Shown here in pieces: positions 19,389 to 37,203 of a stretch of 64,000 bases of DNA (positions within the stretch are counted from its first letter, which is position 1; each line of letters starts with the position of its first letter). The DNA comes from Planctomycetaceae bacterium. GTDB taxonomy: Bacteria > Planctomycetota > Planctomycetia > Pirellulales > UBA7805. Location of the stretch: assembly GCA_902630355.1 (NCBI GenBank), contig CACOUL010000005.1, positions 1-64,000 of the forward strand, read 5' to 3'. The translations under genes were made by a program, and so were the position numbers. The notes under the pieces were generated by a model that saw nothing but the letters and a program-made list of their open reading frames with translations, did not search any database and had not been told where the DNA came from.

Positions 19389-21155
19389 ATGTTTCAAGCC
19401 TTTACCATGCAGTGCGTCACGTGCGGCGCGCAACTTCGCGTCGAACGTGAAGAGGCGATCGGGCAAATCCTCAACTGCCCTAAATGCAAGAGTATGGTGC
19501 AGATTGAAATGCCCGCCCTCGCAGGGGCAGTAATTCACGAGGCCGCGACTGAACCTCCAACTGAGGAAGGCCTCTCAGCCGATTTGACGGGGAATGCCGG
19601 CCAACCTGAGACCGCAGCACATCAGACACAGACAACGGTCCCCACGCTTCCTCGCAGCCCCGCGATGAAGCTGCCCCAGTGGGCCCTACTGCCGGTCGCC
19701 GCAACGGTGGGGGTGCTGTTCGCCATCGGTGTATGGTCGGCATTTCAACTACCAACTGATCACAACGCAGCTGATAACGACCCGGCCTCACAGAAAATAC
19801 AGTTTAACGAATCGTCACTCACGCCCACCGTAAACTCACCTCAATCTCCGCCAACGCCTGTGGCACCACCAGCGGATCTCGAGTCCGCAGACCGCGATCA
19901 AACGGTTCCTCAAGAGCAGAACGATCGCAGCGCAGCGGCGCCGGAACTACAACACACAGAGCACACAGAGCCTCCCACACGAAACGATGCCGCCCATGGG
20001 GTTGAGGAGGACAACCCCGAGCCAGACTCACCAGCAGAATCGCAACTGCCCACGGACACACCGCACCGGGACGGGGACGTGCAGCAGCACCACAGCGATA
20101 CGGCACAAAAACATTTACCCCCGGCAAGCGACCAGCTCAAAAATCAGATGCTTCGAGAAGTACTTGGGATCACTTTCGAACCAACCTCCTTAAAACGTGC
20201 TGCCGCAACGCTCGCCCAATTATTAGCAGTGCCCATACAAATCGATCTCGCGGCACTCGGCCGGGCCGGCATCGCGCCGGATACACCGGTCGAATATCAA
20301 GGAGATGCCCGACAGTTGCGAGACGTGTTGGCCGAAATGCTCACACCGCTCGGTTTGGTCGCTACCGAAACGGGAGATCGCATTTTCATTACTCTGCCGG
20401 ATGCGGATGATCGGTCATACAGCGAGATGACATACGATGTACCGCTCTCGAGCGATGCAGTGGAGTCGCGCAATTTAATTAAGTCATTTGTTAATCCCGA
20501 TACATGGAAAGGGCAGGGGGGCGCGGGAACGATCACCATCAACGGCAACGCACTGCTGGTTTCGCAGACGCCAGCCGTCCACGGTAACCTCCACCGCTTT
20601 TTCAGTGATTTCCGTGGTGGCACTCAGAGGCTGTCTCCCTCAGTTGACGCAAACATCGTTAAGCACGCCCTCTCTCAAGCGATCAACTGCACGACAGATC
20701 AACCGGTTCCGCTCAGTGACTACCTGCGACAACTCAGCTCTAGAACGGACGTGGAATTCATACTCGACGAACTCCAACTCCTCCGCAATGGTATTTCTCC
20801 GTCGCACCCGATCTCGGTCAGCACACCTGAGCCGACTCTACAGACTCTACTCGAAGAGTTGCTGGCACCTTTGGGACTTGCCTTCCGCCCCCTCTCCGCC
20901 AACACGTTCCTCATCACGCTTCCGGCCGATTGCGAGCCGCAGTTGCGGGTTTATTTTCTCCCGGTTCCTCCTGAAGCCGTCAGGCGTGGAGAAGCGTTAC
21001 TCACTTCGATCCGACAGGAAATTGCCCCCGACTCGTGGCAGACGGCGGGCGGGGAGGGGAAGCTCGCCTTGCACCCGGCATCTCGTCGCTTGATCCTCTT
21101 GCAGCGACCCGAAACACAGCAGAAGGTCACCCACTACCTAAATTCTTTACCCTAG
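19389..21155 (+). CDS. Zinc-ribbon, single-TM protein with duplicated STN-like domains
   Basis: CVTCGAQLRV...CPKCKSMVQI zinc ribbon, TM LLPVAATVGVLFAIGVWSAF, Pro/Thr/His-rich linker, two copies of a 'xLxxxLxxL...VxxxxDxxxL...GIxPxxPV...LxxxLxxxLxPLGL...FxITLP' module. Confidence 0.65.
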   Translation: MFQAFTMQCVTCGAQLRVEREEAIGQILNCPKCKSMVQIEMPALAGAVIHEAATEPPTEEGLSADLTGNAGQPETAAHQTQTTVPTLPRSPAMKLPQWALLPVAATVGVLFAIGVWSAFQLPTDHNAADNDPASQKIQFNESSLTPTVNSPQSPPTPVAPPADLESADRDQTVPQEQNDRSAAAPELQHTEHTEPPTRNDAAHGVEEDNPEPDSPAESQLPTDTPHRDGDVQQHHSDTAQKHLPPASDQLKNQMLREVLGITFEPTSLKRAAATLAQLLAVPIQIDLAALGRAGIAPDTPVEYQGDARQLRDVLAEMLTPLGLVATETGDRIFITLPDADDRSYSEMTYDVPLSSDAVESRNLIKSFVNPDTWKGQGGAGTITINGNALLVSQTPAVHGNLHRFFSDFRGGTQRLSPSVDANIVKHALSQAINCTTDQPVPLSDYLRQLSSRTDVEFILDELQLLRNGISPSHPISVSTPEPTLQTLLEELLAPLGLAFRPLSANTFLITLPADCEPQLRVYFLPVPPEAVRRGEALLTSIRQEIAPDSWQTAGGEGKLALHPASRRLILLQRPETQQKVTHYLNSLP

Positions 21156-21260
21156 TGGTGCGGCGCAATGGTCCTATCGATCTGTGAGTCTCTCACTTAA
21201 AATTGCTTTTATCACGTCTGCCACGTGAAGGGCCCCGCGAGCTTAGTCGAGGAGAAAAAG

Positions 21261-22301
21261 ATGATCGTGGTTATGAAAGCCGACGCCTCGAAGGATCAGA
21301 TTGCGCATATGACTGCGCAAGTGGAAAGCCTGGGGCTTCGAGCACACGTGATTGTCGGTACCGAACGCACCGTGATTGCCGCAATCGGAGTGAAACGCGA
21401 CGGCACCAAGGAATCGCTTGCCATCGGCGAGGGGGTTGCAGAAGTCGTCCCTATTTCGGCGCCGTATAAGGTTGCCAGCCTGGAGGTGAAATCCGAAAAA
21501 ACTTTGGTTCAGGCGGGCAGCCTCAGAGTAGGCGGTCGTCAAATCGGCATCATTGCCGGCCCCTGCAGCGTGGAGAGCGAAAGCCAAATCCTTGAAACTG
21601 CCAAAGCGGTGAAAGAGGCTGGTGCCCATGCTCTCCGCGGAGGAGCTTTCAAACCGCGCACCAGTCCCTACAGCTTCCAGGGCATGAAAGAGGAGGGGCT
21701 GAAACTGCTCGACGCGGCACGGCAAATGACCGGTTTAGCAGTCGCTACAGAGGTTGTGGCCACCGAAGATGTAGAACTCGTAGCCCGTTACGCCGATGTG
21801 CTTCAAGTCGGTGCTCGCAACATGCAAAACTATCGCCTCCTCGAAGCGGTCGGCTCGGTGGATCGGGCGGTGCTGCTAAAACGCGGCCCGAGTGCGACAG
21901 TGGACGAGTTGTTGCTTGCTGCGGAATATATCCTCGATCGTGGCAATGGACGTGTGATTCTTTGCGAACGTGGGATACGTACCTACGAATCCCACACGCG
22001 ATTCACACTGCCGTTGGCAACTGTCTCATACCTCCATCACAAAACACACCTTCCAGTAGTCGTTGACCCGAGTCATGGTACCGGGCATGCCTACATGGTT
22101 CCCGATATGGCGGCAGCGGCAATTGCCGCAGGCGCCGATGGCCTGATCGTGGAGGTACACCCGACTCCGGAAACGGCACTTTCCGACGGGTATCAATCTC
22201 TCACGCCTGCAGCGTTCGCCGATATGATGGACCGATGCCGGAAGATTGCCAATGCGGTCGACCGCTGCCTTGAAGAGTCGCACAACGCCACCGGAGGGTG
22301 A
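21261..22301 (+). CDS. aroF: 3-deoxy-7-phosphoheptulonate synthase (AroA/DAHP type with N-terminal ferredoxin-like domain)
   Basis: IGIIAGPCSVESESQILETA, LRGGAFKPRTSPYSFQG, QVGARNMQNYRLLEAVG, VVDPSHGTGHAYMVPDMA. RBS GGAGAA upstream of ATG. Confidence 0.93.
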   Translation: MIVVMKADASKDQIAHMTAQVESLGLRAHVIVGTERTVIAAIGVKRDGTKESLAIGEGVAEVVPISAPYKVASLEVKSEKTLVQAGSLRVGGRQIGIIAGPCSVESESQILETAKAVKEAGAHALRGGAFKPRTSPYSFQGMKEEGLKLLDAARQMTGLAVATEVVATEDVELVARYADVLQVGARNMQNYRLLEAVGSVDRAVLLKRGPSATVDELLLAAEYILDRGNGRVILCERGIRTYESHTRFTLPLATVSYLHHKTHLPVVVDPSHGTGHAYMVPDMAAAAIAAGADGLIVEVHPTPETALSDGYQSLTPAAFADMMDRCRKIANAVDRCLEESHNATGG

Positions 22302-22305
22302 ATCT

Positions 22306-22512
22306 ATGGATGACGCACGTTTCGTAAAGATAGAAACCAAGCTCGCCTTCCAGGAAGCCACTGTCGATAAACTCGGCGAGGTCATCCGAGATCAGCAGGA
22401 ACAACTCGATACGCTCAGCCGTGCACTCCGGGATTGTGCTGCTCGCCTTGAAGGGTTTGAAAGGACGGCCGCACCGGGGGAAATTCCGGATGAGAAACCG
22501 CCTCATTATTGA
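22306..22512 (+). CDS. slyX: SlyX family protein
   Basis: 68 aa; LAFQEATVDKLGEVIRDQQEQLDTLSRALRDCAARLEGFE plus the typical C-terminal PPHY. Confidence 0.8.
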   Translation: MDDARFVKIETKLAFQEATVDKLGEVIRDQQEQLDTLSRALRDCAARLEGFERTAAPGEIPDEKPPHY

Positions 22513-22653
22513 GGTGACTCCGCCCCCCGCTACCCTGCGGATCGAATCGAAAAAATTGTTAAAACAGGCGGAAATTCGCCTGGATCGGCGATCCCTCCCG
22601 GGTCAGAATGGCGATTTTCGGAACTTTCCCTGTACGGCAGGGTTAAACCCCTA

Positions 22654-23907
22654 GTGACCATGAGCGCCCAACCACCTTACCGATGCCCGAAATGTCGCCT
22701 CCGCCGGACCCGGTCCGCGCTGAGTCCCTCAATGACCGCTTCGCGCCTGCCTTCTCGCCGCGGACTAGCGCCGCTCGAAATGGTGATGGGACTACCGCTG
22801 ATCCTGCTGCTTTTTGCCCTAATTATTAACGCGGGCTTTACAGGCATGTGGAAACTTCGACTTCTCGGTGCCGCGCGGGAAGTTGCCTGGCGATCCCGGG
22901 ACCCGCGCACAAGCAATCTACCGAATCCCGACTATCAATCAAATTTCTGGAGGCAGCCGAACCATTCGGAAGACAAGCCGCTCACCGTGAACGCCTCGGC
23001 GGGGCACCCTTTGAGTATTCCCGACCTTGCTTCTGCCTCTGCCGTTCGCTCGGACTATGGATCGTTGCGAGTCGATACGCAATTACTCGATCCTAAACGC
23101 GGGGTCCTGGAAGGGCAATCCGACGTTGCGAGGAAATTACCTCTGCTTCCCAATGGATTGAAGACGATGCACTCCAATCCGAAACATTACATAACGGACA
23201 ATAGTTTTCCCTTCTGGAATACCAGGCTCTCAAACAACGTCGGCAGACGGACACAGGTGCTTTATGGCGAAGACAATGGCATCGCATCGAGTGAATTTGG
23301 AAACGATTGGGCGGGGTACACAGACTCGGTGGTAAATACCAATGTTGCTCTAATGGCAGACAATCTTCTGCCCCTCGGTGGCTTTCACGTGGAACATAGC
23401 CTATGGCCGAAATACAACGAAGGCCGATACCATGACCCGGAAGTATACACTTGGCAGTATCGTGGCCTTTTGCCGCATCCACCGGGATTCATGCCCCAAA
23501 TCAGTAGTTTCATCAGTTCAGATGCAGACGCCATCCGGCAGAGTCACGTCGACCCTCACGTGCTAAAAATCGAGGACGACGATGACCTGCGTGTCGAAAC
23601 GGGAGCAATTAAGGAGACAGAGAAAAACCTACCGCATTCGCTCGCGGGAAGTTACGTCAGCTTTTTCAGAGATGCGATCGGTTTGGTCCAAGACCATATC
23701 GACCAAGTCAACGAGCAGATACAAATGTCTCAGATGAACTTACAGGCCGCGACGCAAGCCGGAGACACCAATACCATCGCGAGCCTCAAGCAAACAATCA
23801 GTGAACTCCAAAATGAACTTTCGATGGCCACAACGGAGTTTCAACGACGAGAGCAAATCCTCAACCCGGTCATTCAGCAATTAGAAGCCTACCAGTCGGG
23901 TTTCTAG
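22654..23907 (+). CDS. TadE-like pilus assembly/pseudopilin protein
   Basis: RRGLAPLEMVMGLPLILLLFALIINAGFTGMWKLRLLGAAREVAWR matches the TadE-like N-terminal TM segment (xxGxxxxExxxxLPxLLLLF); first gene of the putative tad cluster. Confidence 0.7.
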   Translation: MTMSAQPPYRCPKCRLRRTRSALSPSMTASRLPSRRGLAPLEMVMGLPLILLLFALIINAGFTGMWKLRLLGAAREVAWRSRDPRTSNLPNPDYQSNFWRQPNHSEDKPLTVNASAGHPLSIPDLASASAVRSDYGSLRVDTQLLDPKRGVLEGQSDVARKLPLLPNGLKTMHSNPKHYITDNSFPFWNTRLSNNVGRRTQVLYGEDNGIASSEFGNDWAGYTDSVVNTNVALMADNLLPLGGFHVEHSLWPKYNEGRYHDPEVYTWQYRGLLPHPPGFMPQISSFISSDADAIRQSHVDPHVLKIEDDDDLRVETGAIKETEKNLPHSLAGSYVSFFRDAIGLVQDHIDQVNEQIQMSQMNLQAATQAGDTNTIASLKQTISELQNELSMATTEFQRREQILNPVIQQLEAYQSGF

Positions 23908-23981
23908 CGAGGTTGCCCCCAAGATACCCACAGGCATTCTGGCCGCGCCTGCTCCGCTGCTGCACGTTATAATAGGAAGTC

Positions 23982-24962
23982 ATGGACACCCGTCATATCC
24001 AATCCAAAGCAGTGACTCCTAGCGATGAGACGTCATCCCCGGGCAACCCCAATCGATCGTGGTCGGTTTCCGGGGTTGTGGACGCGCTCCAGGGTGCGAT
24101 CAAAACCATACTGACCCTGGCGATCCTTGCACTGTTTTTATATATCGGGCAATACCTTGTGCAGTTCTCCGGCCTCGATTCTCAAGCCGTAACCACGAGG
24201 CCCGCCGACGCTGCCATATTGAACTCGGACAAACCGATGACAATTCGCTTTGCCGATGCACCGTTTGCATTTTACCAAGAACACTATGCGGGCAGTGATG
24301 AGATGCTCCAACAGCGGGTCCAAGAGGCGTGTTATCGAATGGCGGTCGCGAGTCCCTCTCCCGTCACCGCGCCTAGTGCCGAAGAATCCCGTTTGCTCAA
24401 TACGCTCTCCGCGTCCGCTTGCAGTGCGCCGGGGGAGGGCATTCTTGTTTGTCAGGCGAGTCCCACCCTTCCTCTCTTCGTCGGCCTGCGATGCCCTGCG
24501 ACTGACTTCTCTGCCGCCGTGACCCCTGAAATGGTACGCACCGCACGCGTTGTCTCCTGGGGTTTTGCGCTACCGTCAGCAGTCAACGAGTGGAAGATAC
24601 GTGCGATCGGGAAAGGGACAGAGAGCGGAAATATCTCATCGATCTCCTTGCCCCCCGAAGTTCTCAAGATACTGCAACTTAATACACGCGGCGGCGATTC
24701 GATTGTTGCTTTCTCAAGCCAAAGCAAACTTTCTGAACAGATTGCAAGCTTCGACCGTTATTTTGCCGAGCAGCAATGGCAAAAGGGCACTCCATGGAAT
24801 GTATCGAGCGATCATGGTCGCGGCATCTACACCCGCAGAATGGGAGATCGCGTTGAAGAGGCGACCGTTCACATTCAACGGGACGGTTCCTCATCCCCCA
24901 GCGAACGAATCCCTCGCTGGCATGGCATCATCAATATGGAACAATACGATCAAACAGATTAG
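23982..24962 (+). CDS. Hypothetical single-TM protein of the tad-like cluster
   Basis: ORF with N-terminal TM TILTLAILALFLYIGQYLVQF; located between TadE-like and CpaB-like genes. Confidence 0.6.
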   Translation: MDTRHIQSKAVTPSDETSSPGNPNRSWSVSGVVDALQGAIKTILTLAILALFLYIGQYLVQFSGLDSQAVTTRPADAAILNSDKPMTIRFADAPFAFYQEHYAGSDEMLQQRVQEACYRMAVASPSPVTAPSAEESRLLNTLSASACSAPGEGILVCQASPTLPLFVGLRCPATDFSAAVTPEMVRTARVVSWGFALPSAVNEWKIRAIGKGTESGNISSISLPPEVLKILQLNTRGGDSIVAFSSQSKLSEQIASFDRYFAEQQWQKGTPWNVSSDHGRGIYTRRMGDRVEEATVHIQRDGSSSPSERIPRWHGIINMEQYDQTD

Positions 24963-25000
24963 TTTAATTCGACTGACAATCCACACGACGGGATAAAGAC

Positions 25001-25708
25001 ATGAAGGGCATTCAGGGACTGATTATCGCAATTGTCTTGGGACTCGTAGGTTTTGCATTCAACATGTATTACCTCACAAAGAGTCGCGATTTTGCGCACG
25101 ATTCGTTCATCGGAGTCAAAAGAAACGCGAACATCAAGCGCGGTACACCGCTAAGCAAAAATCACTTTGAAAAAATCTCGATCCCTAAAGAATATGTCGG
25201 TAACTTGAAACGATATGCCCTCGTCTGGTCAGACATCGATGCGATTGAGGGCCGCAAGGCGATTCGCGACTATGAAGAGGGGGGCTTGCTGCTGCGTAAC
25301 GATTTCCGAACTGCTCCAAACGAACTTCGCCTAATCGGCGGAGAAACGGCCATATCGGTACCCATCGATACCCGCACCACGAACACCTCGCAAATCATAC
25401 CGGGGGAAACGCGAATATCATTCTATATCCCGAGCGTACGAGGCCAGAGTTCGGATACCGCACTCGAAGGCAATCGTCAATGGATCGGCCCCTTCGATGT
25501 CCTCGCAGTGGGCAACCGCATGGGGTCTACCGACATCGTCGACCAGCAGGGCGGCAGAGGAAACAGTGAAAATCGGGTGACCCTCAAGGCGACCAGCGAA
25601 TCTGGAAGAGACATTAAAGGCATGCCGCAGTTAATGAATTATCTTACGACCAGCAAATTCAAACCGCTCCGATTAAAAATACACGCGGCAAACCCCGATA
25701 GTCGCTAA
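25001..25708 (+). CDS. CpaB/RcpC-like (SAF domain) pilus assembly protein
   Basis: N-terminal TM, ANIKRGTPLSKNHFEKISIP, GRKAIRDYEEGGLLLRNDF, ISVPIDTRTTNTSQIIPGETRISFYIP. Confidence 0.65.
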   Translation: MKGIQGLIIAIVLGLVGFAFNMYYLTKSRDFAHDSFIGVKRNANIKRGTPLSKNHFEKISIPKEYVGNLKRYALVWSDIDAIEGRKAIRDYEEGGLLLRNDFRTAPNELRLIGGETAISVPIDTRTTNTSQIIPGETRISFYIPSVRGQSSDTALEGNRQWIGPFDVLAVGNRMGSTDIVDQQGGRGNSENRVTLKATSESGRDIKGMPQLMNYLTTSKFKPLRLKIHAANPDSR

Positions 25709-25731
25709 CCAATCGTGCCGAGGGAATTTTG

Positions 25732-27687
25732 ATGAAAGTCTGGTTCAATCGCATCAGTGAAAGCCGCCGCTCAATGCTCGAACTCGAGGGAACTGAGTTC
25801 CGAATTGGCCGCGACCAGTCCAACGACATTGTCCTCACAAGTCCACTTGTGTCGCGCGAGCATGCGGTCGTGCGCCTGGTCGGCGAACAACTCGAGCTTG
25901 AAAATCTGGGCATCAACAGCTGCCTCGTCGGAGAAACGGAAATCCTTGGTGGTCAGTCGGCCTCATTTACGCCGGGCGCTAAAATTCGAATCTGGCCTTA
26001 TACGATTTCATTTCAACGCGAAACAGAATCGAGCTATAGCCAGACAGAAATCGAGTCGCATTTGCGTCGTCAAATGGCAAAACTTGAACTCGATATTCAT
26101 CAAAAGCTTCTGGAACGACTCGATCTTTACGAATTCGAGGGTGAGCGGGGCGCAACGCAAGACAGCATCATTCTCCTGGAAAACAATATTGAGGATGTCT
26201 GCCGGGACCTCAACCTTTTTGGCGATCAAAACGAAGCGTTGCTCGAAGAAATTACAGGCATCACACTTCGCGACCAACTTGTCAATCAGTTGATCCTGGA
26301 AACGGGTGAGGACGACGTCGTTTTTGACCTTGCGGTCTTAACCAGCAACGAGTTTGATATTCCCGCTACACTCGTACCGGAACGAGAAACGGAGCTTCAT
26401 AGCCTGCTGACCTTTATCCGGGAGAAGTTGGCGTTAAACGAATTGCCGGATGTGAGCAGTCGTGTTCGCACTTTAGAACAAAAGTTTGCCGAAACATTTC
26501 ATCTCGTGCGACCCCACCTTCATGGCGAATTACGCAAATATCTTATCCTTCGTGCAATAAAGAAAGATCTCAAAGATACCGTATTCGGGTTCGGGCCTTT
26601 ACAGGATCTACTGCGGGCACCGACGATCACCGAGATCATGGTGGTCCAGAGCGATCAGATTTTTGTCGAGCGCGACGGCATTATCGAAAACTCCGGAAGG
26701 CGTTTTCTCTCCGAAAAGGTAACCGAAGCGATCATCGAAAGGATCGTAGCCCAAGTTGGCAGACGAATCGACAAAAGCCAACCGCTTGTTGACGCTCGGC
26801 TTCCTGACGGGTCCCGCGTCAATGCCATCATTCCGCCGCTGGCAATTAAGGGGCCGTGCCTGACGATACGAAAATTCCCCATTCAGCGTCTGGCAATGGA
26901 TGACCTTATTGAATTTGGAAGCATCTCCAGGTCAGCGGCAACATTTCTTCGCTCGGCGGTGATTGACGGTCGGAATATCTTAGTCAGTGGGGGTACTGGC
27001 ACGGGAAAAACCACCTTCCTTAATATTCTTTCCAGTTTCATTCCATACAAGCAACGGATTGTCACGATCGAAGACACCACGGAACTGCGACTGCATCAAG
27101 AACATGTGGTAACCCTTGAATCAAAGCCCGCCAATGTCGAGGGGGTAGGGGAATATACCATCCGGGACTTGGTCACCAATGCGCTTCGAATGAGACCCGA
27201 TAGAATTCTGGTCGGTGAGTGTCGCGGTGGTGAAGCGCTCGACATGGTTCAGGCGATGAACACCGGCCACGACGGATCGATGACCACCCTCCATGCAAAC
27301 AGCGCAGATGAGGTTTTGGAGCGACTTGAGGTCCTCATTCTGATGGCTGCCGATCTCCCCGTAATCTCTATCCACCGACAGGTAACGTCCGCAATCGACC
27401 TGATTGTCCACATTGACCGCTGGCCCGGAGGGCAGAGAAAAGTAACCCAGATTGCCGAGATCACAGGGATCGATCCGGATACCAAGCGTGCGAACACGAC
27501 CGATATCTACAACATCCGACAAACTTCCAGTTCGCTGCGGCCCACAGGATATCTTCCGAGTTTCATTGATAGCCTGGTTGATAAAAACCTGATCGATTTA
27601 GATTTCCTGTACGAAAACTACAATGAATCCGCAAATCAACCATCGACTAACGGGGAAACACTCTCCTCAAACGAGCCCTTCGGGTAA
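25732..27687 (+). CDS. cpaF: FHA domain fused to CpaF/TadA-type secretion ATPase
   Basis: FHA: FRIGRDQSNDIVLTSPLVSREHAVV...LENLGINSCLVG. ATPase: Walker A SGGTGTGKTTFLNIL; Walker B/His region RPDRILVGECRGGEALDMVQAMNTGHDGSMTTLHANSADEVLERLE. Confidence 0.9.
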   Translation: MKVWFNRISESRRSMLELEGTEFRIGRDQSNDIVLTSPLVSREHAVVRLVGEQLELENLGINSCLVGETEILGGQSASFTPGAKIRIWPYTISFQRETESSYSQTEIESHLRRQMAKLELDIHQKLLERLDLYEFEGERGATQDSIILLENNIEDVCRDLNLFGDQNEALLEEITGITLRDQLVNQLILETGEDDVVFDLAVLTSNEFDIPATLVPERETELHSLLTFIREKLALNELPDVSSRVRTLEQKFAETFHLVRPHLHGELRKYLILRAIKKDLKDTVFGFGPLQDLLRAPTITEIMVVQSDQIFVERDGIIENSGRRFLSEKVTEAIIERIVAQVGRRIDKSQPLVDARLPDGSRVNAIIPPLAIKGPCLTIRKFPIQRLAMDDLIEFGSISRSAATFLRSAVIDGRNILVSGGTGTGKTTFLNILSSFIPYKQRIVTIEDTTELRLHQEHVVTLESKPANVEGVGEYTIRDLVTNALRMRPDRILVGECRGGEALDMVQAMNTGHDGSMTTLHANSADEVLERLEVLILMAADLPVISIHRQVTSAIDLIVHIDRWPGGQRKVTQIAEITGIDPDTKRANTTDIYNIRQTSSSLRPTGYLPSFIDSLVDKNLIDLDFLYENYNESANQPSTNGETLSSNEPFG

Positions 27688-27717
27688 CATAACCTGCATT
27701 TTTTGGCGTAGTCGTCC

Positions 27718-28587
27718 ATGCTCCTGGCCAATTCATCACCCAATGAAATTGTCATTCTCGCCTCCTCGCTCTTTGTGGGCGCAGGTGTGGGACTTTTTTC
27801 ATATGCGTCAAAACCGTACTACTTGCGCGGCATCGATTATCTCGAAGCTGATTTTTCTGATAAGTTCCGCCGTCTTCAGATAAGCACGAGCAAACTACGG
27901 CTCGGACTTATTCTCTGGTCGATTGGCCTGCTTGTCATTTTCCTCGTGTTCACCCTCTTGCTGGGGAGTCTCATCTTCGGATTCCTAAGCACCCTGTTGC
28001 TCTTTTCAGGCCCATGGTGGTATCTGAGACGGAAAGCGCAGATACGACGCGACCAAATTGAAGACCAGCTTGCCGACGCAATGGTTTCTCTTTCAAGCGC
28101 CATCCGAGCCGGCGTTTCATTGCCCCAGGCAGTCGAGATGCTGGCAGACAACTCCCCCCAACCGATCAAGAGTGAATTTGGGTACATCATGACCGACTAC
28201 GAAATGGGCAAGCCGCTCGATCGTGCCCTTCAGGAAGCCAAAGAACGTCTCCGCAGCGAGAATTTTGCTCTGTTTGCTGCCGCAATTCTTGCAAGTCGTG
28301 ATAGTGGCGGCCGACTCAACGAGACCGTGGACCGCATCGCACATTCGGTACGCGAACTGCAGCGCCTGGAGCGGAAGGTACAATCCGATACGGCAATGGC
28401 CCGAAAAAGTGCCATCTACATGGCCATTGCCCCGTTCATTATCCTGGCAGCCTATTACTTCCTCGATAGTGGAGCGGTTTCCAATTTATTCAGCACCACG
28501 ATCGGACAAATGCTCCTTGCGGCTTCGATTGTATTGAACATCATTGCCTATTTGTGGGCGCGACACATCTTGAACCCCGATATCTAG
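27718..28587 (+). CDS. tadB: TadB-like type II/IV secretion F domain membrane protein
   Basis: LADAMVSLSSAIRAGVSLPQAVEMLADNSPQPIKSEFGYIMTDYEMGKPLDRALQEAKERLRSENFALFAAAI; multiple TM helices. Confidence 0.85.
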   Translation: MLLANSSPNEIVILASSLFVGAGVGLFSYASKPYYLRGIDYLEADFSDKFRRLQISTSKLRLGLILWSIGLLVIFLVFTLLLGSLIFGFLSTLLLFSGPWWYLRRKAQIRRDQIEDQLADAMVSLSSAIRAGVSLPQAVEMLADNSPQPIKSEFGYIMTDYEMGKPLDRALQEAKERLRSENFALFAAAILASRDSGGRLNETVDRIAHSVRELQRLERKVQSDTAMARKSAIYMAIAPFIILAAYYFLDSGAVSNLFSTTIGQMLLAASIVLNIIAYLWARHILNPDI

Positions 28588-28608
28588 CTTTTCCAAGAGA
28601 AAATCCGC

Positions 28609-29550
28609 ATGTCTCCCGAAATGCAACTTCATTCTGCAGCACCCGACTTGCTTATCGTCCGCCTGATAGCGAGCGGGGCGATCGCCACCGGTCTGGCAAT
28701 TCTAGGGTGGTGGATCATCTGCTCCCTCGCCTCGGAAGACCTGGAACAGAAAAACGAGTGGCGATTCGATATTAACCGTGTGAATGAACTCCGCCGGCTT
28801 GATCAGGTTTTCCGCACCTTTCAACCCGCGATCCAGCTTTTTGCCCGCATCAACCGCAACATGTTCGCCGAGTCTCTCCCTTCAATCGCACGGGAAATCA
28901 ATGCGGCGGGGCTTCCTCGTTTTTGGCTACCCGAAGAGTATTTGGGGAAACTCCAGTTTTTTGCTGCGGTGCTCACACCCGTTTATCTCTGGTTTTTTGT
29001 CAGCTCATTCGGTGAGATTGGGATTGCGCTGGCTTTCATGGGGTTTATCGCAACCGCATGGATTCTTCGACTCCACCTAAGAAATCGCGCACTTTATCGT
29101 GTCGTACTGATCAAGCGTCGCCTCCCGTTTTTGCTCGACCTTATGACGCTCCTGATGGAGGCGGGCTCGACCTTCCTTCACGCACTTCGCCAGGGCGTCC
29201 AGGAATTCGAGGGACATCCCGTGGCTTTTGAGTTTGGCCGCGTGCTGGCGGACATGCAAATGGGAAAGACTCGCACCGATGCATTCCAGGCCATGCAGTC
29301 ACGTCTGGCCGACGATGAAATTTCGAGTATTATTTCGTCGATTATCCAGGGGGAGCAACTCGGTTCGCCCCTCGCCCAGGTATTTCGCATTCAATCAGAT
29401 GTGCTTCGGATCAAGCGGACACAACGCGGCGAAAAGATTGCAGCCGAGGCGGGAGTCAACATGCTGTTACCCGGAATTCTCATCATGCTTTCAACTGTTT
29501 TAATTATCCTGGGACCATTTTTGATAAACGCGGTTGGATTTTTAAATTAA
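28609..29550 (+). CDS. tadC: TadC-like type II/IV secretion F domain membrane protein
   Basis: LPFLLDLMTLLMEAGSTFLHALRQGVQEFEGHPVAFEFGRVLADMQMGKTRTDAFQAMQSRL...; C-terminal TM. Confidence 0.85.
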   Translation: MSPEMQLHSAAPDLLIVRLIASGAIATGLAILGWWIICSLASEDLEQKNEWRFDINRVNELRRLDQVFRTFQPAIQLFARINRNMFAESLPSIAREINAAGLPRFWLPEEYLGKLQFFAAVLTPVYLWFFVSSFGEIGIALAFMGFIATAWILRLHLRNRALYRVVLIKRRLPFLLDLMTLLMEAGSTFLHALRQGVQEFEGHPVAFEFGRVLADMQMGKTRTDAFQAMQSRLADDEISSIISSIIQGEQLGSPLAQVFRIQSDVLRIKRTQRGEKIAAEAGVNMLLPGILIMLSTVLIILGPFLINAVGFLN

Positions 29551-29568
29551 CCCACAGCGAAACGCACT

Positions 29569-30504
29569 ATGGCAATTGAGCTTGATTGTCCCCGTTGCAA
29601 CCGGAGCCTTTCTCTGGCCGACGAGTTAGCCGGGCAGTATGCGCAGTGCAAACATTGCGAGGGGCGAATCTGGGTATCGGCACCTCAAGCGCCGAAGTCC
29701 GGTCAACCCTCTTCTCGCAGTCAACCACCACCTGTGCCGTCCGTCACTGGGCCAACACCGGGGGGAGACTCCGGGCATGATGAAGTCAGTCCCACCCCAC
29801 TCCCGACAGCCAGCCATGTCGCGGCGCCACCCCTGACCAACACGACGGACATGCCGACACAGCCTCCACCAACTGCGTCCACTGACACCAACTCGAGTGA
29901 CATGGCGACAGAAAGGTCGGTTTCACCGCCACCGATAACCGCTTCACCTGCCAATCCCCCGCCGCCACCAAAAAAAAATAAACGGGTCGCTGAATTAATA
30001 GCGGCCGAACCGGCACAGTCACGACTTGAAGTCGGGCCCGGCGGAGACCTCCCCGAACTAAGCCTTTCGGCCGGTGAAGATCAAGACAGCGATCAGAAGC
30101 AGAAGAAAAAATCAAATGACTGGCTGGTTTTTGCTGTAATCATCATGAGTCTCGTTGTCTCCACCGCGATGCTCATGATAGATAGCGAAACAAACCAAAG
30201 CGTTCAAGGTGAGACAAAGCAACATATTCGTGATAAAATCAAAGCCAAATATTTCGGGCCTCCGGAAGGCCCGTGGCGGAAGTATCAACAGCTACTGCGT
30301 GATGCAGCGCTTGCGAGGAGTCAAGGCGATTTTGAAAAGGAAGAACAAAACTACCGGTTGGTTTTGTATCAACTCAATGCGGCTGATCTCGACAAAACTG
30401 ACCAGGGGGTAACCGGACTCCGCAGAGCGACGAGGAACGACGCGTCCCTTCCGAGCGACGAGGAACTCAAAACGCTTCTGCACGCACTGCTATATAACAA
30501 TTAA
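29569..30504 (+). CDS. Zinc-ribbon, Pro/Thr-rich, single-TM hypothetical protein
   Basis: CPRCNRSLSLADELAGQYAQCKHCEGRIWV, long Pro/Ser/Thr-rich linker, TM WLVFAVIIMSLVVSTAMLMI. Confidence 0.65.
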   Translation: MAIELDCPRCNRSLSLADELAGQYAQCKHCEGRIWVSAPQAPKSGQPSSRSQPPPVPSVTGPTPGGDSGHDEVSPTPLPTASHVAAPPLTNTTDMPTQPPPTASTDTNSSDMATERSVSPPPITASPANPPPPPKKNKRVAELIAAEPAQSRLEVGPGGDLPELSLSAGEDQDSDQKQKKKSNDWLVFAVIIMSLVVSTAMLMIDSETNQSVQGETKQHIRDKIKAKYFGPPEGPWRKYQQLLRDAALARSQGDFEKEEQNYRLVLYQLNAADLDKTDQGVTGLRRATRNDASLPSDEELKTLLHALLYNN

Positions 30505-30524
30505 ATACTATTACTGTATTCAGC

Positions 30525-33500
30525 ATGCAGCCACACGCGCGTTACAACATTATCGCCCAGATTGCATCGGGAGACTTTGCCTCTGTTTTCCGTGCGCGCG
30601 ACAAAGAACTCGCTCGCGATGTGGCGATCAAGCAAATCCATCCGCATTTTCTTGCTGATCCAAGGCAACTCAATCTGTATTGGGATGAGGCTCAGACACT
30701 CGCATCACTGGAACATCCCAACGTATTAACGATTTACGATATTGATCGTGAACGCGGCTGGCTGATTCTGGAACTCATGAAAGACACCATGCAAACGCGC
30801 GCGGCAGGCAAGCCGCTCGACTTGGATTTGGTGCGCATGGGACTGATCTGCGGACTCAAGGCACTCGATTTTTTACATAAGAGCAACATTATTCACGGTG
30901 ACGTTAAACCGAGCAATTTGCTCATTGACCGTCGCAATTGGATAAAACTGGCAGATTTCGGATTCGCGCAACGAGCAACCAACGATCAGGGGAGTCTGTT
31001 TAAAGGAACCACTCGCTATATTGCCCCCGAACGCGTTGACCCCGAACGATTCGGCCCGGTGGGCCCGGCCAGCGACCTCTATTCGCTCGGCTTTGCCATG
31101 TACGAATTGTTGTGTGGCAATGCCTTTGAATCGCTGTTTCCGGGATTCGCGGCATTTGGATCGGATAAACAAATCGCCTGGATGATGTGGCATGCCGGCC
31201 CAGACCGGCACATTCCAAAAATCAGTCGCGTTCTGAAGGGTGTACCCGAGGACTTGGCACATGTCATCGAGCGCCTCGTGATAAAAAACCCCGAAGAACG
31301 CTATCGGGATGCCGAGGAGGCGATTCGCGATCTCAAACTCGGCATGGGGCAGCAGGCGGGAATGACTGCAGCCGAAAAAGCCGAAGAGGAAGCAGCGGCT
31401 CTCGAAGCCGAATCAAAAAAGAGGCGGAAAAAAATTCTCATCGTGGCAGTGTGCAGCTTAGTCCTTAGCTTGCTACTAGTCGTCTGCCTTCCGTTCCTTG
31501 AACCGCCGCCACCACCCGAGGTAAAGCGATTACCGGAAATTCACGGTGAGATTGTGCAAATCTACGAATCTCCGGCATCGGATGACTCCACACCGGACAT
31601 GACGCTCGGAAAGTTTGTGATTGACGCTGACCGAATCATCATTAAAGGTCCGAACGCTACGGACAAAAAGCATGAAATGGTCGGCGACCAGATCAACGCC
31701 CCGCAAACATTGAACATCCGCTCGATCGATCAGATCACTATCAATGACGAGCGATTAAATCTCAAAACTCCTGAATTCGGCATGCACCTCTTTAAAGTCG
31801 GGGATAGCGTTCGCTCCGAAGTCGATCTCGATCGCACGACGGGGCAACAAATCCAGATCATTCATATTTCCCGACCCATCGAAGACACTGGAGAAATTGT
31901 CGATGTCCAACCGGACAACAATGCGTTCGTCATCAAGAGTAGATCGTTCGATAACGATTTGATTAAGATTTTCCTACCGGAAGCTATTGTGATCGAAATC
32001 AATGACAGAAAGCGACGGTCGCAAAACAACAATACTGCAGGCCTACTTAAAAACGGCGATCAGGTTCAACTCAGCCACAACGTCTTTTTTGAGAATGGGA
32101 AGCAAACCGATGATCGTCAAGCTCAACATGATTCCGTGATCCGGGTCACCCGTCAACTCACAACGAGAGGAGAAATCCAAGACATCGATGTTGCAAATCG
32201 AACGATCATTGTTCGCACAAGTAATGGCGAAAAACGCTCCATTCGACTGGGAGATACATGCGAAATAATCGTCAACGGCCGAAGAAATATCCGCGATCGG
32301 AAACTTTCAATGGCCGACCTCAAATATCGCGATCAAGTAACAGTAGACCACGATAATCTTGCGCAAACAATCGATGCGAGGCGAACAAGCAAAGGAGAAG
32401 GGTCGATTCTTAAAATTACTCCGGCTACACGACGCCTCCGAATCCAACTTCAGGGAAGCGATTCCCGTATTGCATCTTTTCATCTTCCAGAATCCGTAGC
32501 CGTCACGCTCGGGCCCGAGCAGGTGACGCTTGAAGACCTTCAACCGACCGATATGGTGACCCTCACTTACGATGACACCGACTCGGATAACCCGGTTATC
32601 AGCCAACTCACGGCAGAGAGGCGAGCTGATCGCAAGCGCTGGGCGATCGTACTGGGATTCAATAAATACGATGATCGCACACTTAGCCCGGTCGCGCATC
32701 TTGGCCCCGCTTCAGACAACGTTGTGGACACCCTGATTCGGCGCTACCGGATACCCGAAGACCAGGCCCTCAGGCTAAAGAACGTGTCTCGCACGGAACT
32801 CAAATCAAATATCAAGAGCTTTCTTCGGCAAATACGGCAGGGCGATCAGCTTCTCGTCTACTACGCAGGACACGCATATATTGATCGCAACAATCAACCG
32901 CAGCTGGCAACAACCGATTTCGAACTTCTCGATGCAGCCAACACAGGGCTTCCCCTCGCTTGGCTCATCGAAAACATTGAGACATGTTCGGCGGATGATA
33001 CGGTTTTATTCCTCGACACCTGTCACGAGGGGAGCGGCGCCGATTTACGCCAACAACCGTCGAGCGAGGAGCAGATCCTGTTACTTGAAAAGGATCGGTC
33101 TCGGCCCGCTCTCAAATCACTCCGGGTGATCACCAGTTGTGGCGCCAACGAGAGAGGGCAAGTGGATCGCGGGGAGGGTATTTTTGCAAATGCAATTGGG
33201 GCAGCCTATCGAGGTGATGCAGATACAGACGCTGACCGAAACGTCACACTTGCAGAAGTAAGCGATTTCGTTCGCAAGTACCTTGCAAACGAAACCAATG
33301 GCGCCCAAACGTCGCGCGTCATTATGCCCGGAAAGGTCGTCCCCCCGAGACTCAGTCCGGATGCCATCGAACAAATGAAGGCACTGGCTGACCAACTACG
33401 GAAAACGACAATTAATTCACTGGAAATCATTCAACTGGTAGATGAACTCGATGGGGACTCAGCGGAGGAACCTGAACCAAAACTCTTATGTGGCCTTGCC

Positions 33501-34019
33501 GAAGTCCGCCTTAAAAACTACCGCGACGCGATCATGCGTTTTGAAGACTGCGGAGAAAGTCCCATTGCCATTCAAGGAATTATCTGGAGCAACTATCGCT
33601 CCCGCGACTACTCTGACGCAGTCGGCCAACTTATCACACTTACCGACATTGCAATACAAATGCGGGGTGGCGATGAGCGGCAGAGGCGCGAAGCAAAAAG
33701 AATTTTAGAGTGGGCAGGAAGACTTCGGGAATATGCGGCCGCCGAAGCCCCTAAAAGAGACCAAATATCGACCCTCGATGCGGAACAGATCGATGACGCC
33801 GTAAAGAGCGGAGGCCGAGATGCCGAAACATTTTACAATGAAGGACGAGAATCGGTACAGAAGGTAGCGGCACGGTTTGACCGTGCGATCGACGAGGCGC
33901 CGAGCAATGGAGCACGGTCGGTCGCGCGAAACAAAAAAATGAAACTGAGCAACTATGCCGATTTCAATCTGTCGCTCCTCATCCAGCAGATCATGCGATC
34001 GGCACAGGAAGACGGCTAA
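30525..34019 (+). CDS. Transmembrane Ser/Thr protein kinase - caspase (peptidase C14) fusion
   Basis: Kinase: VAIKQIHPHF, IIHGDVKPSNLLID, LADFGFAQ, YIAPERVD. TM: KKILIVAVCSLVLSLLLVVCLPFL. Caspase: RWAIVLGFNKYDD...QLLVYYAGHAYID (His), TVLFLDTCHEGSGADL (Cys). TPR-like C-terminus. Confidence 0.88.
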   Translation: MQPHARYNIIAQIASGDFASVFRARDKELARDVAIKQIHPHFLADPRQLNLYWDEAQTLASLEHPNVLTIYDIDRERGWLILELMKDTMQTRAAGKPLDLDLVRMGLICGLKALDFLHKSNIIHGDVKPSNLLIDRRNWIKLADFGFAQRATNDQGSLFKGTTRYIAPERVDPERFGPVGPASDLYSLGFAMYELLCGNAFESLFPGFAAFGSDKQIAWMMWHAGPDRHIPKISRVLKGVPEDLAHVIERLVIKNPEERYRDAEEAIRDLKLGMGQQAGMTAAEKAEEEAAALEAESKKRRKKILIVAVCSLVLSLLLVVCLPFLEPPPPPEVKRLPEIHGEIVQIYESPASDDSTPDMTLGKFVIDADRIIIKGPNATDKKHEMVGDQINAPQTLNIRSIDQITINDERLNLKTPEFGMHLFKVGDSVRSEVDLDRTTGQQIQIIHISRPIEDTGEIVDVQPDNNAFVIKSRSFDNDLIKIFLPEAIVIEINDRKRRSQNNNTAGLLKNGDQVQLSHNVFFENGKQTDDRQAQHDSVIRVTRQLTTRGEIQDIDVANRTIIVRTSNGEKRSIRLGDTCEIIVNGRRNIRDRKLSMADLKYRDQVTVDHDNLAQTIDARRTSKGEGSILKITPATRRLRIQLQGSDSRIASFHLPESVAVTLGPEQVTLEDLQPTDMVTLTYDDTDSDNPVISQLTAERRADRKRWAIVLGFNKYDDRTLSPVAHLGPASDNVVDTLIRRYRIPEDQALRLKNVSRTELKSNIKSFLRQIRQGDQLLVYYAGHAYIDRNNQPQLATTDFELLDAANTGLPLAWLIENIETCSADDTVLFLDTCHEGSGADLRQQPSSEEQILLLEKDRSRPALKSLRVITSCGANERGQVDRGEGIFANAIGAAYRGDADTDADRNVTLAEVSDFVRKYLANETNGAQTSRVIMPGKVVPPRLSPDAIEQMKALADQLRKTTINSLEIIQLVDELDGDSAEEPEPKLLCGLAEVRLKNYRDAIMRFEDCGESPIAIQGIIWSNYRSRDYSDAVGQLITLTDIAIQMRGGDERQRREAKRILEWAGRLREYAAAEAPKRDQISTLDAEQIDDAVKSGGRDAETFYNEGRESVQKVAARFDRAIDEAPSNGARSVARNKKMKLSNYADFNLSLLIQQIMRSAQEDG

Positions 34020-34684
34020 ACCTTACCTGCTCTCATAAGCTGCCCCACCGTTTTCTCATGTCGCTGTCCGCGCCGTACGAAGTACCACCACGGTATCCGC
34101 ATAGGCCAAAGTGCGAGCGAACGGATAAATTCCGACTGCCGCTCGAGAGCGTCCGCGAAATCATTCTCGAATTCTTCTTCACCGGCGAGAGGAGTCATGC
34201 CCGCAAGACGCGCCAACGCCTGCAACCCCTCCTGATGACGGCGATAGAGCACAGCGAGCGTGGCCGTAAAACTCTGGAGATAACTGCCCGGCGGGGTCGG
34301 TAGCAACTGACTATCTTTTGATTTTCCGGTGGTGAGCATTCCCTGCTCACAAATCGTTACAATATCGATAAGAACGTTTCCATTGGCCAACAGATAGGCA
34401 CACACGTAGGTTCGCTCGCCCCTCTTTTGCCAAGCAACCAGACCCGCAATACCGGCCATACGCTCTACTTGATAGGCTGCGACCGGATCGAATGCGTTGA
34501 GCGACAGCCACGGGGTATCGACTGCACCTGTCGCGACGACCCTCTCAAGCAGTACCTCTGCGGCGCGACCCGCAGTTGCTTGTAACTGGACATTGCGCAT
34601 CGCAAGCACCGGACCACTGCCCGCACAGGCGACCAGTACCCAAACCGCTCCCAACGCAATGAGGCCCCAAACCACGACGGTCAT
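34016..34684 (-). CDS. Hypothetical membrane-anchored protein
   Basis: N-terminal TM MTVVVWGLIALGAVWVLVACAGSGPVLA; convergent with and overlapping the kinase-caspase stop codon by 4 bp. Confidence 0.6.
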   Translation of the reverse strand: MTVVVWGLIALGAVWVLVACAGSGPVLAMRNVQLQATAGRAAEVLLERVVATGAVDTPWLSLNAFDPVAAYQVERMAGIAGLVAWQKRGERTYVCAYLLANGNVLIDIVTICEQGMLTTGKSKDSQLLPTPPGSYLQSFTATLAVLYRRHQEGLQALARLAGMTPLAGEEEFENDFADALERQSEFIRSLALWPMRIPWWYFVRRGQRHEKTVGQLMRAGKV

Positions 34685-34711: not shown

Positions 34712-35587
34712 TTAACGATTGCGGTCAGATAAAAAATGCTCCAACTCGCGGCGGTCGATCATACCGTCTTGATTGCGATCCGCCTGCCGCACATGTCCAC
34801 GTAGTTTGGGAGGAATTTCATCAACTGAGAGGAGTCCATCTCCATCTGCATCGTTTCGAAACAACCGATCCACCAACCGATCAACGTTCGAACGATCGCG
34901 CCCTTCGCCACGTGGCGGGCCTTCGTCGTCGTCGGACCGGGATCTCGCCCGCTCCGGAGGTCGCCGTCGATTTGAAAAATCCGCGTCTTCTTCCCGCGAG
35001 TCGAAATCATCTTCATCCTCAAATCGGCGGTCATTATCGAAGTCGTCTTCAAACCCCTCATCGTCGAATTGACCCGGAGGCGGTCGCCGCCTGCGATCGG
35101 AGCGATCAAACCGGCCATCACTCTCATCGCGGTCGTCAAAATCCTCCTCAAATCGATTCGGAGGTGGTCGTCGTCCGCGAGGCGGGCCCCCAAATCGGTC
35201 ATCATCGTCGCGGGGGACCGGACGCCGAAATTCCCCATCGCTCGGGTTCCGATTTCGACCATTATCGGGGCGATCGAAATCGTTATCTCGCGGGCGGCGC
35301 GGCGACCGGAACAACGCTGCTAATTCGCGCGGATCGACGTATCCGTCACCGTCGCGATCAAGCCCCTTGAGCTTCTCTGCGATCGCCTGAATTTCTTCGT
35401 GCGAAAGCATCCCGTCACCATCTTTATCGAATCCCTCGAGCGGTGGCGGCAAATGGGGCCCGCGACGGTGAGCAGGTCGTGGCGGATCCTCTCGATCAAA
35501 CTCATCGAAATTATCGTTTTCGTCCGCCGACAGCGGCAGAGCGACCAACAATAACAACAAACATAAGACCCGGCAGAGTTGAATCAT
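34712..35587 (-). CDS. Secreted EF-hand protein with Asp/Arg/Pro-rich low-complexity linker
   Basis: Signal peptide MIQLCRVLCLLLLLVALPLSADE; four EF-hand loops: DKDGDGMLSHEE, DRDGDGYVDPRE, DADGDGLLSVDE, DRNQDGMIDRRE. Confidence 0.82.
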   Translation of the reverse strand: MIQLCRVLCLLLLLVALPLSADENDNFDEFDREDPPRPAHRRGPHLPPPLEGFDKDGDGMLSHEEIQAIAEKLKGLDRDGDGYVDPRELAALFRSPRRPRDNDFDRPDNGRNRNPSDGEFRRPVPRDDDDRFGGPPRGRRPPPNRFEEDFDDRDESDGRFDRSDRRRRPPPGQFDDEGFEDDFDNDRRFEDEDDFDSREEDADFSNRRRPPERARSRSDDDEGPPRGEGRDRSNVDRLVDRLFRNDADGDGLLSVDEIPPKLRGHVRQADRNQDGMIDRRELEHFLSDRNR

Positions 35588-35724: not shown

Positions 35725-37203
35725 TCAAAGGCTCACCACCACCAATATCGTGACAGCGATGACGGCCACGAGAAGGACCACCCCCATCGTAATGGCCATT
35801 CTATTGGGCTTTTTCTCCGCTGCACTACGCTCGCGTGGACGCAGTTCCGCACTGGCGGACAGGTCGGCGGGTGATTCTTGCCAGAGCACATCCTCCTCGC
35901 GATCCTCGAGGGGCGCCAATTCTGGAACGACAGCCGTATCGTCCGATACTTCTTCGCTTGCGGCGGCCACTGACCGGACCCGCGGCAACTCACGAGCAGC
36001 CCATTCGGCATACTTCGCAGTCCCTACGCCTCGGGTTTCGGCAATCCGCTTTAATAAATCAATGGCCTGCTGGAACTCTCTTCGCTGGAGGTATAACCGT
36101 ACTTTCCTGCAGTCTTCCCGCATGCCGTCGACTACCGAAACAGACTTTACAGGATTATCTTGCTCGCCATCCAAGGCAATTTCAATTTCCTCGTGCGCTG
36201 AGCCCACTTCGCCGAGCCTCGTGCCACTGACCGTAGGTTCGGCACGAAACTCTTTGAGAAATTGGTCCAATGCCGCGACCAACTCCTGCATTGTCGCAAA
36301 ACGATCTTCCGGATTTCTTGCCATTGCCCGCATGCAAATAGCGCAAATTCGAGGATCCAGTTCCTGTCGATGCGCATCTGGCGACTTCGGGTCCTTTGAG
36401 ATCACTTCCGTGATCAATGCCACAATCGACCCGCCCCCCTCAAACGGAAGTTCACCCGTAAGGGCTTCGTAAAAAAGAACTCCCAGGCTATAGATATCCG
36501 ATCTGGGATCGACATCCGAGACTTTGCCTCCGAGCTGCTCGGGTGACATGTAGGCCGGCGAGCCGGAAATAGCGCCTTCGCGGGTGATTTTTACATCCTC
36601 ATTGCCACTCCGTCGCGCTAGACCAAAGTCCATAACCACCGGCTCTCCGCGGTGGTCGATCATGACGTTGTCCGGCTTCAGATCCCGGTGCACCAAATCG
36701 TATCCGTGCGCTTCGTGCATCGCTTGGGCGATTTTACGGACCACACGGGCCACCTCATCTTGTGGTTGTCGGCGGGAACCGACGTAATCGGCCAGCGAGT
36801 GACCTTCGACGTACTGCATGGCGATATAATGCGTTCCCTCATCCTCACCCACATCATAAATCGCACAGATATTCGGGTGTGAAATCGCCGCTGCGGAACG
36901 GGCCTCGCGATAGAATCGCTTGATCACTTCCTCCCCGGAGCCCTCGGGAAATTTCGGAACTTTCACCGCCACCGGTCGGTCGAGCATCTCATCCCGGGCA
37001 AGATAGACCGCCCCCATCGATCCCGTTCCGAGAACCCGTTCAATTTGGTAGCGCCCGATTCGCTTTTTTTGCTCCGGCACGCTTCCCTCCCGATCGGGTG
37101 CCGTATCCTGATCCGAGTTGATCATCATGGTCTCCTGCAGGTCGCGATCTTTACGCGCAGAACCTGCCGAAGACTGACTTTGTGACGAACCCTCATCGTA
37201 CAT
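35725..37203 (-). CDS. Serine/threonine protein kinase (canonical, C-terminal TM)
   Basis: LGTGSMGAVYLARD, VAVKVPKF, LVHRDLKPDNVMID, MDFGLARR, SPAYMSPEQL; C-terminal TM MAITMGVVLLVAVIAVTILVVVSL. Confidence 0.92.
   Translation of the reverse strand: MYDEGSSQSQSSAGSARKDRDLQETMMINSDQDTAPDREGSVPEQKKRIGRYQIERVLGTGSMGAVYLARDEMLDRPVAVKVPKFPEGSGEEVIKRFYREARSAAAISHPNICAIYDVGEDEGTHYIAMQYVEGHSLADYVGSRRQPQDEVARVVRKIAQAMHEAHGYDLVHRDLKPDNVMIDHRGEPVVMDFGLARRSGNEDVKITREGAISGSPAYMSPEQLGGKVSDVDPRSDIYSLGVLFYEALTGELPFEGGGSIVALITEVISKDPKSPDAHRQELDPRICAICMRAMARNPEDRFATMQELVAALDQFLKEFRAEPTVSGTRLGEVGSAHEEIEIALDGEQDNPVKSVSVVDGMREDCRKVRLYLQRREFQQAIDLLKRIAETRGVGTAKYAEWAARELPRVRSVAAASEEVSDDTAVVPELAPLEDREEDVLWQESPADLSASAELRPRERSAAEKKPNRMAITMGVVLLVAVIAVTILVVVSL

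Follow-up and report, generated by a model that had tools for sequence, protein, structure and literature searches.

The eight plus-strand genes at 22654-34019 of the 64,000-nucleotide stretch of DNA analysed here (the window) are, on balance, probably the inner-membrane half of a Tad pilus machine that has two motors and its own Ser/Thr-kinase switch. One of these motors, a CpaF-type ATPase carrying an FHA domain (FHA-CpaF), and a transmembrane kinase (kinC) are inherited together even when their genes are distant, which suggests protein phosphorylation as the switch of the pilus. The source genome is a MAG, ∼70% complete. The features are as follows, in window coordinates.

22654-23907, + strand: TadE-like minor pseudopilin, 417 aa, one N-terminal TM (Pfam TadE, E 4e-4, below the curated cut-off).
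23982-24962, + strand: u326, N-terminal TM and extracytoplasmic alpha/beta domain.
25001-25708, + strand: CpaB/RcpC-like protein, SAF + RcpC (Pfam RcpC E 0.003, SAF E 0.015, TIGR03177 E 3.7e-5; all below cut-off).
25729-27687, + strand: FHA-CpaF, putative second Tad motor ATPase (Pfam T2SSE, E 9e-57).
25777-25998, + strand: FHA domain of FHA-CpaF (Pfam FHA, E 2.6e-10; pocket residues GR / SREH / N).
27718-28587, + strand: TadB-like platform protein (T2SSF, E 5e-20).
28609-29550, + strand: TadC-like platform protein (T2SSF, E 1.4e-14).
29569-30504, + strand: znr, cytosolic zinc ribbon, P/T-rich linker, TM (aa 186-204) and extracytoplasmic helical tail.
30525-34019, + strand: kinC, membrane Ser/Thr kinase of 1164 aa (Pkinase, E 9e-40), with an ectodomain of beta-repeat, caspase-fold and helical parts.
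30540-31334, + strand: kinase domain of kinC (K36, D126, DFG144-146, activation loop T162/T163).
31434-31490, + strand: single TM helix of kinC, aa 304-322, from hydropathy; it follows KKRRKK.
31527-32609, + strand: beta-repeat region of the kinC ectodomain, from the predicted structure; conserved core, and the part of the ectodomain that is kept in the relatives G012, G030 and G233.
32622-33359, + strand: caspase-fold domain of kinC; His783 (32871-32873) and Cys833 (33021-33023) are present in the window copy.

A preliminary description of this DNA had placed these genes on one strand, spaced by about 18-38 nt between 23982 and 34019. The open reading frames were confirmed: the gaps are 38, 20, 30, 21, 18 and 20 nt, and 74 nt separate the TadE-like gene from 23982. 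Its assignment of an FHA domain to the secretion ATPase and of a Ser/Thr kinase to the last gene is borne out by the Pfam FHA, T2SSE and Pkinase matches. Promoter-like and terminator-like matches within the gene block showed no excess over shuffled sequences, so that one transcript for the block is plausible. The TadE-like gene and u326 are syntenic in relatives. The latter has neither a Pfam nor an NCBIfam match, and its predicted structure (pLDDT 85) found no solved homologue at E<=0.001, with a weak DcrB/MTC28-like resemblance only.

The window does not hold the whole machine, as the other half lies on contig C33 of the same genome, which encodes CpaF1 (370 aa), two pilin-like proteins, a prepilin peptidase, a TadE-like and a TadG-like protein. 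Matches in this partner locus (L072) were Peptidase_A24 at E 4.8e-13, TadE at E 1.4e-6 and Tad at E 0.0065, the last below its cut-off. The two small proteins adjoining CpaF1 are of the GA(A/V)(T/S) type, with a weak Flp_Fap match (E 0.046). In many relatives, this CpaF1/pilin/TadE/TadG half directly precedes the gene set of the window. An RcpA/CpaC-type secretin (Secretin + T2SS-T3SS_pil_N + BON) is encoded, unlinked, on contig C27, with a gene for a Ser/Thr kinase after it (L079). For TadZ/CpaE, PF16968 gave zero matches here and likewise in control genomes.

We found no CpaF-type ATPase in this genome beyond CpaF1 and FHA-CpaF, the remaining related ATPases being of the PilB/PilT/GspE type as judged by size and neighbourhood, and no Tad-type platform pair besides the TadB/TadC of the window. 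By gene content, then, two CpaF motors have one common TadB/TadC platform. Both keep Walker A and the Walker B region; FHA-CpaF also has an intact TLHA box and matches TIGR03819 at E 5e-96, below its cut-off. CpaF1 of the FHA-linked clade was present in 13 FHA genomes checked, and absent from five controls without FHA-CpaF as well as from G109.

In a tree of the ATPase domains (short search, midpoint root, KilF not included), CpaF1 (support 100), canonical CpaF (98) and planctomycete FHA-CpaF (99) formed separate clades. FHA-CpaF of Myxococcota adjoins the planctomycete FHA-CpaF (83), and the CpaF1 partners from the same Myxococcota loci fall inside the CpaF1 clade. From the placement of both Myxococcota motors, the pairing of two motors seems to predate the divergence of Planctomycetota and Myxococcota, or else both were transferred together. 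In two Thermoguttaceae/Planctomycetales bins (L161, L162), FHA-CpaF and then CpaF1 stand adjacent to each other, ahead of TadB/TadC.

We searched 147 genomes of the same order. A full-length FHA-CpaF was observed in 24 of them at 67-98% identity, the source genome included (tier 1), and further FHA-CpaF proteins at 42-49% identity in nine or so genomes (tier 2). With 392 genomes sampled across the phylum, a second order of the same class and members of other classes also came into the comparison. The named relatives are mostly metagenome bins, and genes in them were called as profile-guided ORFs. Loci taken from the tier-1 and tier-2 genomes show the gene order tadE - u326 - cpaB - FHA/cpaF - tadB - tadC - znr - kinC. 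The preliminary description had proposed a check of the neighbourhood in related genomes, and there the linkage is kept. A same-strand kinase lies within 9 kb at 29 of the 44 FHA-CpaF loci that have at least 4.5 kb downstream (tier 1, 13/17; tier 2, 5/9; second order, 2/8; other classes, 9/10), compared to 0/20 canonical Tad loci of the same order, whose CpaF is without FHA (Fisher p 2e-7, for loci that are related by descent and hence not independent).

Co-inheritance is a stronger signal than linkage, since kinC is retained even where it has moved away from FHA-CpaF. When the 147 genomes of the order were searched with a profile of the kinC ectodomain, 20, all of tier 1, matched over the full length, and two more tier-1 genomes (G012 and G030) matched in the beta-repeat part only, so that 22 of the 24 tier-1 FHA-CpaF genomes have the ectodomain in one of these forms. 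In the remaining two the contigs are cut short, in G002 within kinC (L053) and in G003 within cpaF, and no kinC was detected in G003. Among the 123 other genomes of the order, none has the ectodomain; they gave at most a separate caspase-domain match. In two genomes kinC is on another contig than FHA-CpaF, alone in G109 and together with znr in G056. Of the second-order genomes, all eight with FHA-CpaF have the kinC ectodomain, only two of them in the locus, and the 12 without FHA-CpaF have none, save two weak caspase-only matches. Judged from this distribution, kinC is an obligate partner of FHA-CpaF, more than a neighbour. In three genomes of the second order (L117, L118, L119), FHA-CpaF stands without TadB/TadC nearby, and CpaF1 and the kinC ectodomain are encoded elsewhere.

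The residues of the FHA pocket (GR, SRxH, N) were compared in an alignment of 53 sequences. They are intact in the window copy and in all of tier 1, and read SKRQ in most of the second order. The tier-2 pocket is degenerate: its Ser and Arg are lost, yet a kinase is often still adjacent, and a phosphothreonine reading is therefore not universal. At six loci of another class (L121-L126), the kinase gene lies upstream of FHA-CpaF, mostly with a TadE-like gene on one side and a TadG-like gene on the other, and most of the FHA domains there have Ala in place of the pocket Ser. Conserved phosphosites of the FHA type were sought in TadB, TadC, CpaB, znr and u326, none being convincing; candidates in cytosolic parts are confined to the kinase loop and the ATPase itself. 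The znr slot is conserved in relatives. Its product begins with a zinc ribbon in the window (29569-30504) and with an FHA-like N-terminus in the second order and tier 2 (for example L112:12625-13593 and L044:12696-13484), and the TM and helical tail are common to both types. By sequence comparison, this is a swap of the N-terminal domain, zinc ribbon for FHA.

By its conserved residues, kinC is catalytically complete. Every one of the 22 orthologues has Lys36, Asp126, DFG144-146 and the activation-loop Thr163; Thr162 is replaced by Ala in one. It matches NF033483 (PknB/Stk1 family) at E 2.4e-51, below the cut-off. The positive-inside rule would place the kinase inside and the caspase domain outside the membrane. 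Pfam calls no caspase domain in the window copy, which matches the NCBIfam model caspase_w_EACC1 at E 3.6e-20, below cut-off. Pfam Peptidase_C14 matches were obtained in 11 of 15 ectodomains (window and orthologues), and the ectodomain model (pLDDT 84.7) matched MALT1 paracaspase in Foldseek with probability 1.00. NCBIfam, Pfam on the relatives and the predicted structure thus agree that the ectodomain includes a caspase fold. Outside the clade of the window, the kinase ectodomain at L044 consists of Ig-like repeats and TPR, and at L049 the caspase is encoded as a separate gene. The ectodomain is variable while the attached kinase is constant, which fits a sensor role better than an enzyme; the caspase fold is likelier to be mostly a binding or sensor module than a protease.

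Taking these observations together, we infer phosphorylation, reading of the mark and choice of motor in the following manner. The kinC ectodomain, with its beta repeats, caspase-like fold and helical tail, would sense the state of the pilus or the envelope, and kinC would then phosphorylate threonines on itself, on znr or on parts of the platform. The FHA domain of the second motor would read this phospho-mark and recruit or gate FHA-CpaF. The kinase would thereby set which of the two motors drives the common TadB/TadC platform. Such phospho-gating of the second motor is plausible. A wider proposal, which we put forward tentatively as a possibility, is that of an ancient two-motor Tad family of Planctomycetota and Myxococcota whose second motor is switched by threonine phosphorylation; in its planctomycete members, the motor would be picked on contact, for example for extension versus retraction, by a dedicated kinase that spans the membrane and has a sensor domain derived from a caspase. 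A Tad family with two separate motors, of which one has a phosphothreonine reader and is strictly co-inherited with a membrane kinase, would allow direct tests of how Tad pili switch between extension and retraction. A bacterial caspase-fold domain mostly used without its catalytic dyad would also gain a role, and the control of secretion machines by kinase and FHA would extend from type VI secretion to Tad pili.

Other explanations of the same locus were weighed. The kinase may serve the same organelle by a route other than the FHA domain, e.g. through expression or envelope stress, with the FHA domain being a phospho-independent scaffold. This is rather unlikely but deserves serious consideration, as tier-2 loci retain the kinase beside a degenerate pocket, and in the other class, where the kinase gene is flanked by tadE and tadG, the pocket Ser has mostly become Ala; however, tier 1 keeps the pocket without exception and the co-occurrence of kinC with FHA-CpaF is strict. 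That the kinase is an accidental neighbour of an ordinary Tad locus might be thought of because planctomycetes have many kinases. The 20-84 Pkinase genes per genome are, however, too few for chance to account for the linkage, and the absence of kinases from the 20 canonical loci together with the co-occurrence of unlinked genes led us to reject this explanation, which we regard as extremely improbable. An anti-phage defence system was likewise rejected, the PADLOC matches being to generic kinase and caspase only.

The preliminary description had also suggested that the caspase processes pilus or envelope substrates, and as a general function this did not hold. The window copy does have His783 and Cys833, in a fold of the paracaspase/metacaspase type, as an active protease maturing or shedding pilus or envelope proteins would need. 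The dyad is nevertheless intact in only 4/22 orthologues (the window, L058, L238 and L241); its loss in the other 18 rules out an active caspase as the conserved function. Even the kinC copy from the same genus at L052 has Cys changed to Ser. G012 and G030 lack the entire domain, and the profile detected none in G233. We consider an active protease very unlikely. A contact-dependent killing or adhesion apparatus like Kil of Myxococcus xanthus, in place of a dynamic pilus, is also unlikely, though less remote. KilF is an FHA-fused CpaF and Kil has further FHA proteins (PMC8460266), and the FHA-CpaF of Myxococcota adjoins the planctomycete clade in our tree. Kil, on the other hand, has a single ATPase and no TadG, whereas two CpaF proteins and a TadG-like protein are encoded here, and a kinase is nowhere mentioned in the text of PMC8460266.

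The proposed kinase-switched machine with two motors shares parts with several known systems. With the Tad/Flp pilus (Caulobacter CpaF/TadA) it has in common a CpaF-type ATPase, TadB/TadC, CpaB-like and TadE/TadG-like proteins, a prepilin peptidase and an RcpA-type secretin in the genome. Tad pili have, however, been described with one bifunctional CpaF (PMC12019362, PMC11300603), whereas two CpaF clades, one of them with FHA, are combined here with one platform and a dedicated kinase, and the secretin is outside the locus. Fusion of FHA to CpaF is already known, both from KilF, likewise part of a Tad-like machine, and from class III CpaF, which consists of FHA, a disordered region and the ATPase and is reported mostly from betaproteobacteria (PMC12019362). 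FHA-CpaF has the same domain order as class III but belongs to an ancient planctomycete/myxococcal clade that is paired with CpaF1 and, in planctomycetes, with a kinase. A precedent for the proposed switch is type VI secretion, where Fha binds a phosphothreonine that PpkA places on TssL (PMC3953482), so that a kinase and an FHA reader gate a secretion machine. That machine is unrelated, and here the FHA domain is on the motor itself and the kinase ectodomain is made of beta repeats and a caspase fold. Receptor kinases of the PknB/Stk1 family share with kinC a cytosolic Hanks kinase, one TM and an extracytoplasmic sensor; kinC differs in having no PASTA match, in its caspase-like ectodomain and in being encoded or co-inherited with Tad genes. 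In open-access full text we found no Tad system with two CpaF proteins, no kinase tied to one and no caspase-fold ectodomain on such a kinase.

The surroundings of the locus were also inspected. At 21225-22301 and 22302-22653, DAHP synthase occupies the site at which relatives carry the first Tad half. The same arrangement is seen in G003 and G004, and the split of the Tad locus is thus shared within the genus. Further upstream, 19389-21155 encodes a zinc ribbon with repeated STN/secretin-N-like regions, and it adjoins the gene of a large protein with an incomplete kinase domain (16172-19138; C-lobe match only) that is upstream in G003 and G004 too. Downstream, a convergent ORF (34016-34684, - strand) shares 4 nt with the 3' end of kinC; beyond it lie the gene of an EF-hand-rich protein (34712-35587, - strand) and then that of another Ser/Thr kinase (35725-37203, - strand).
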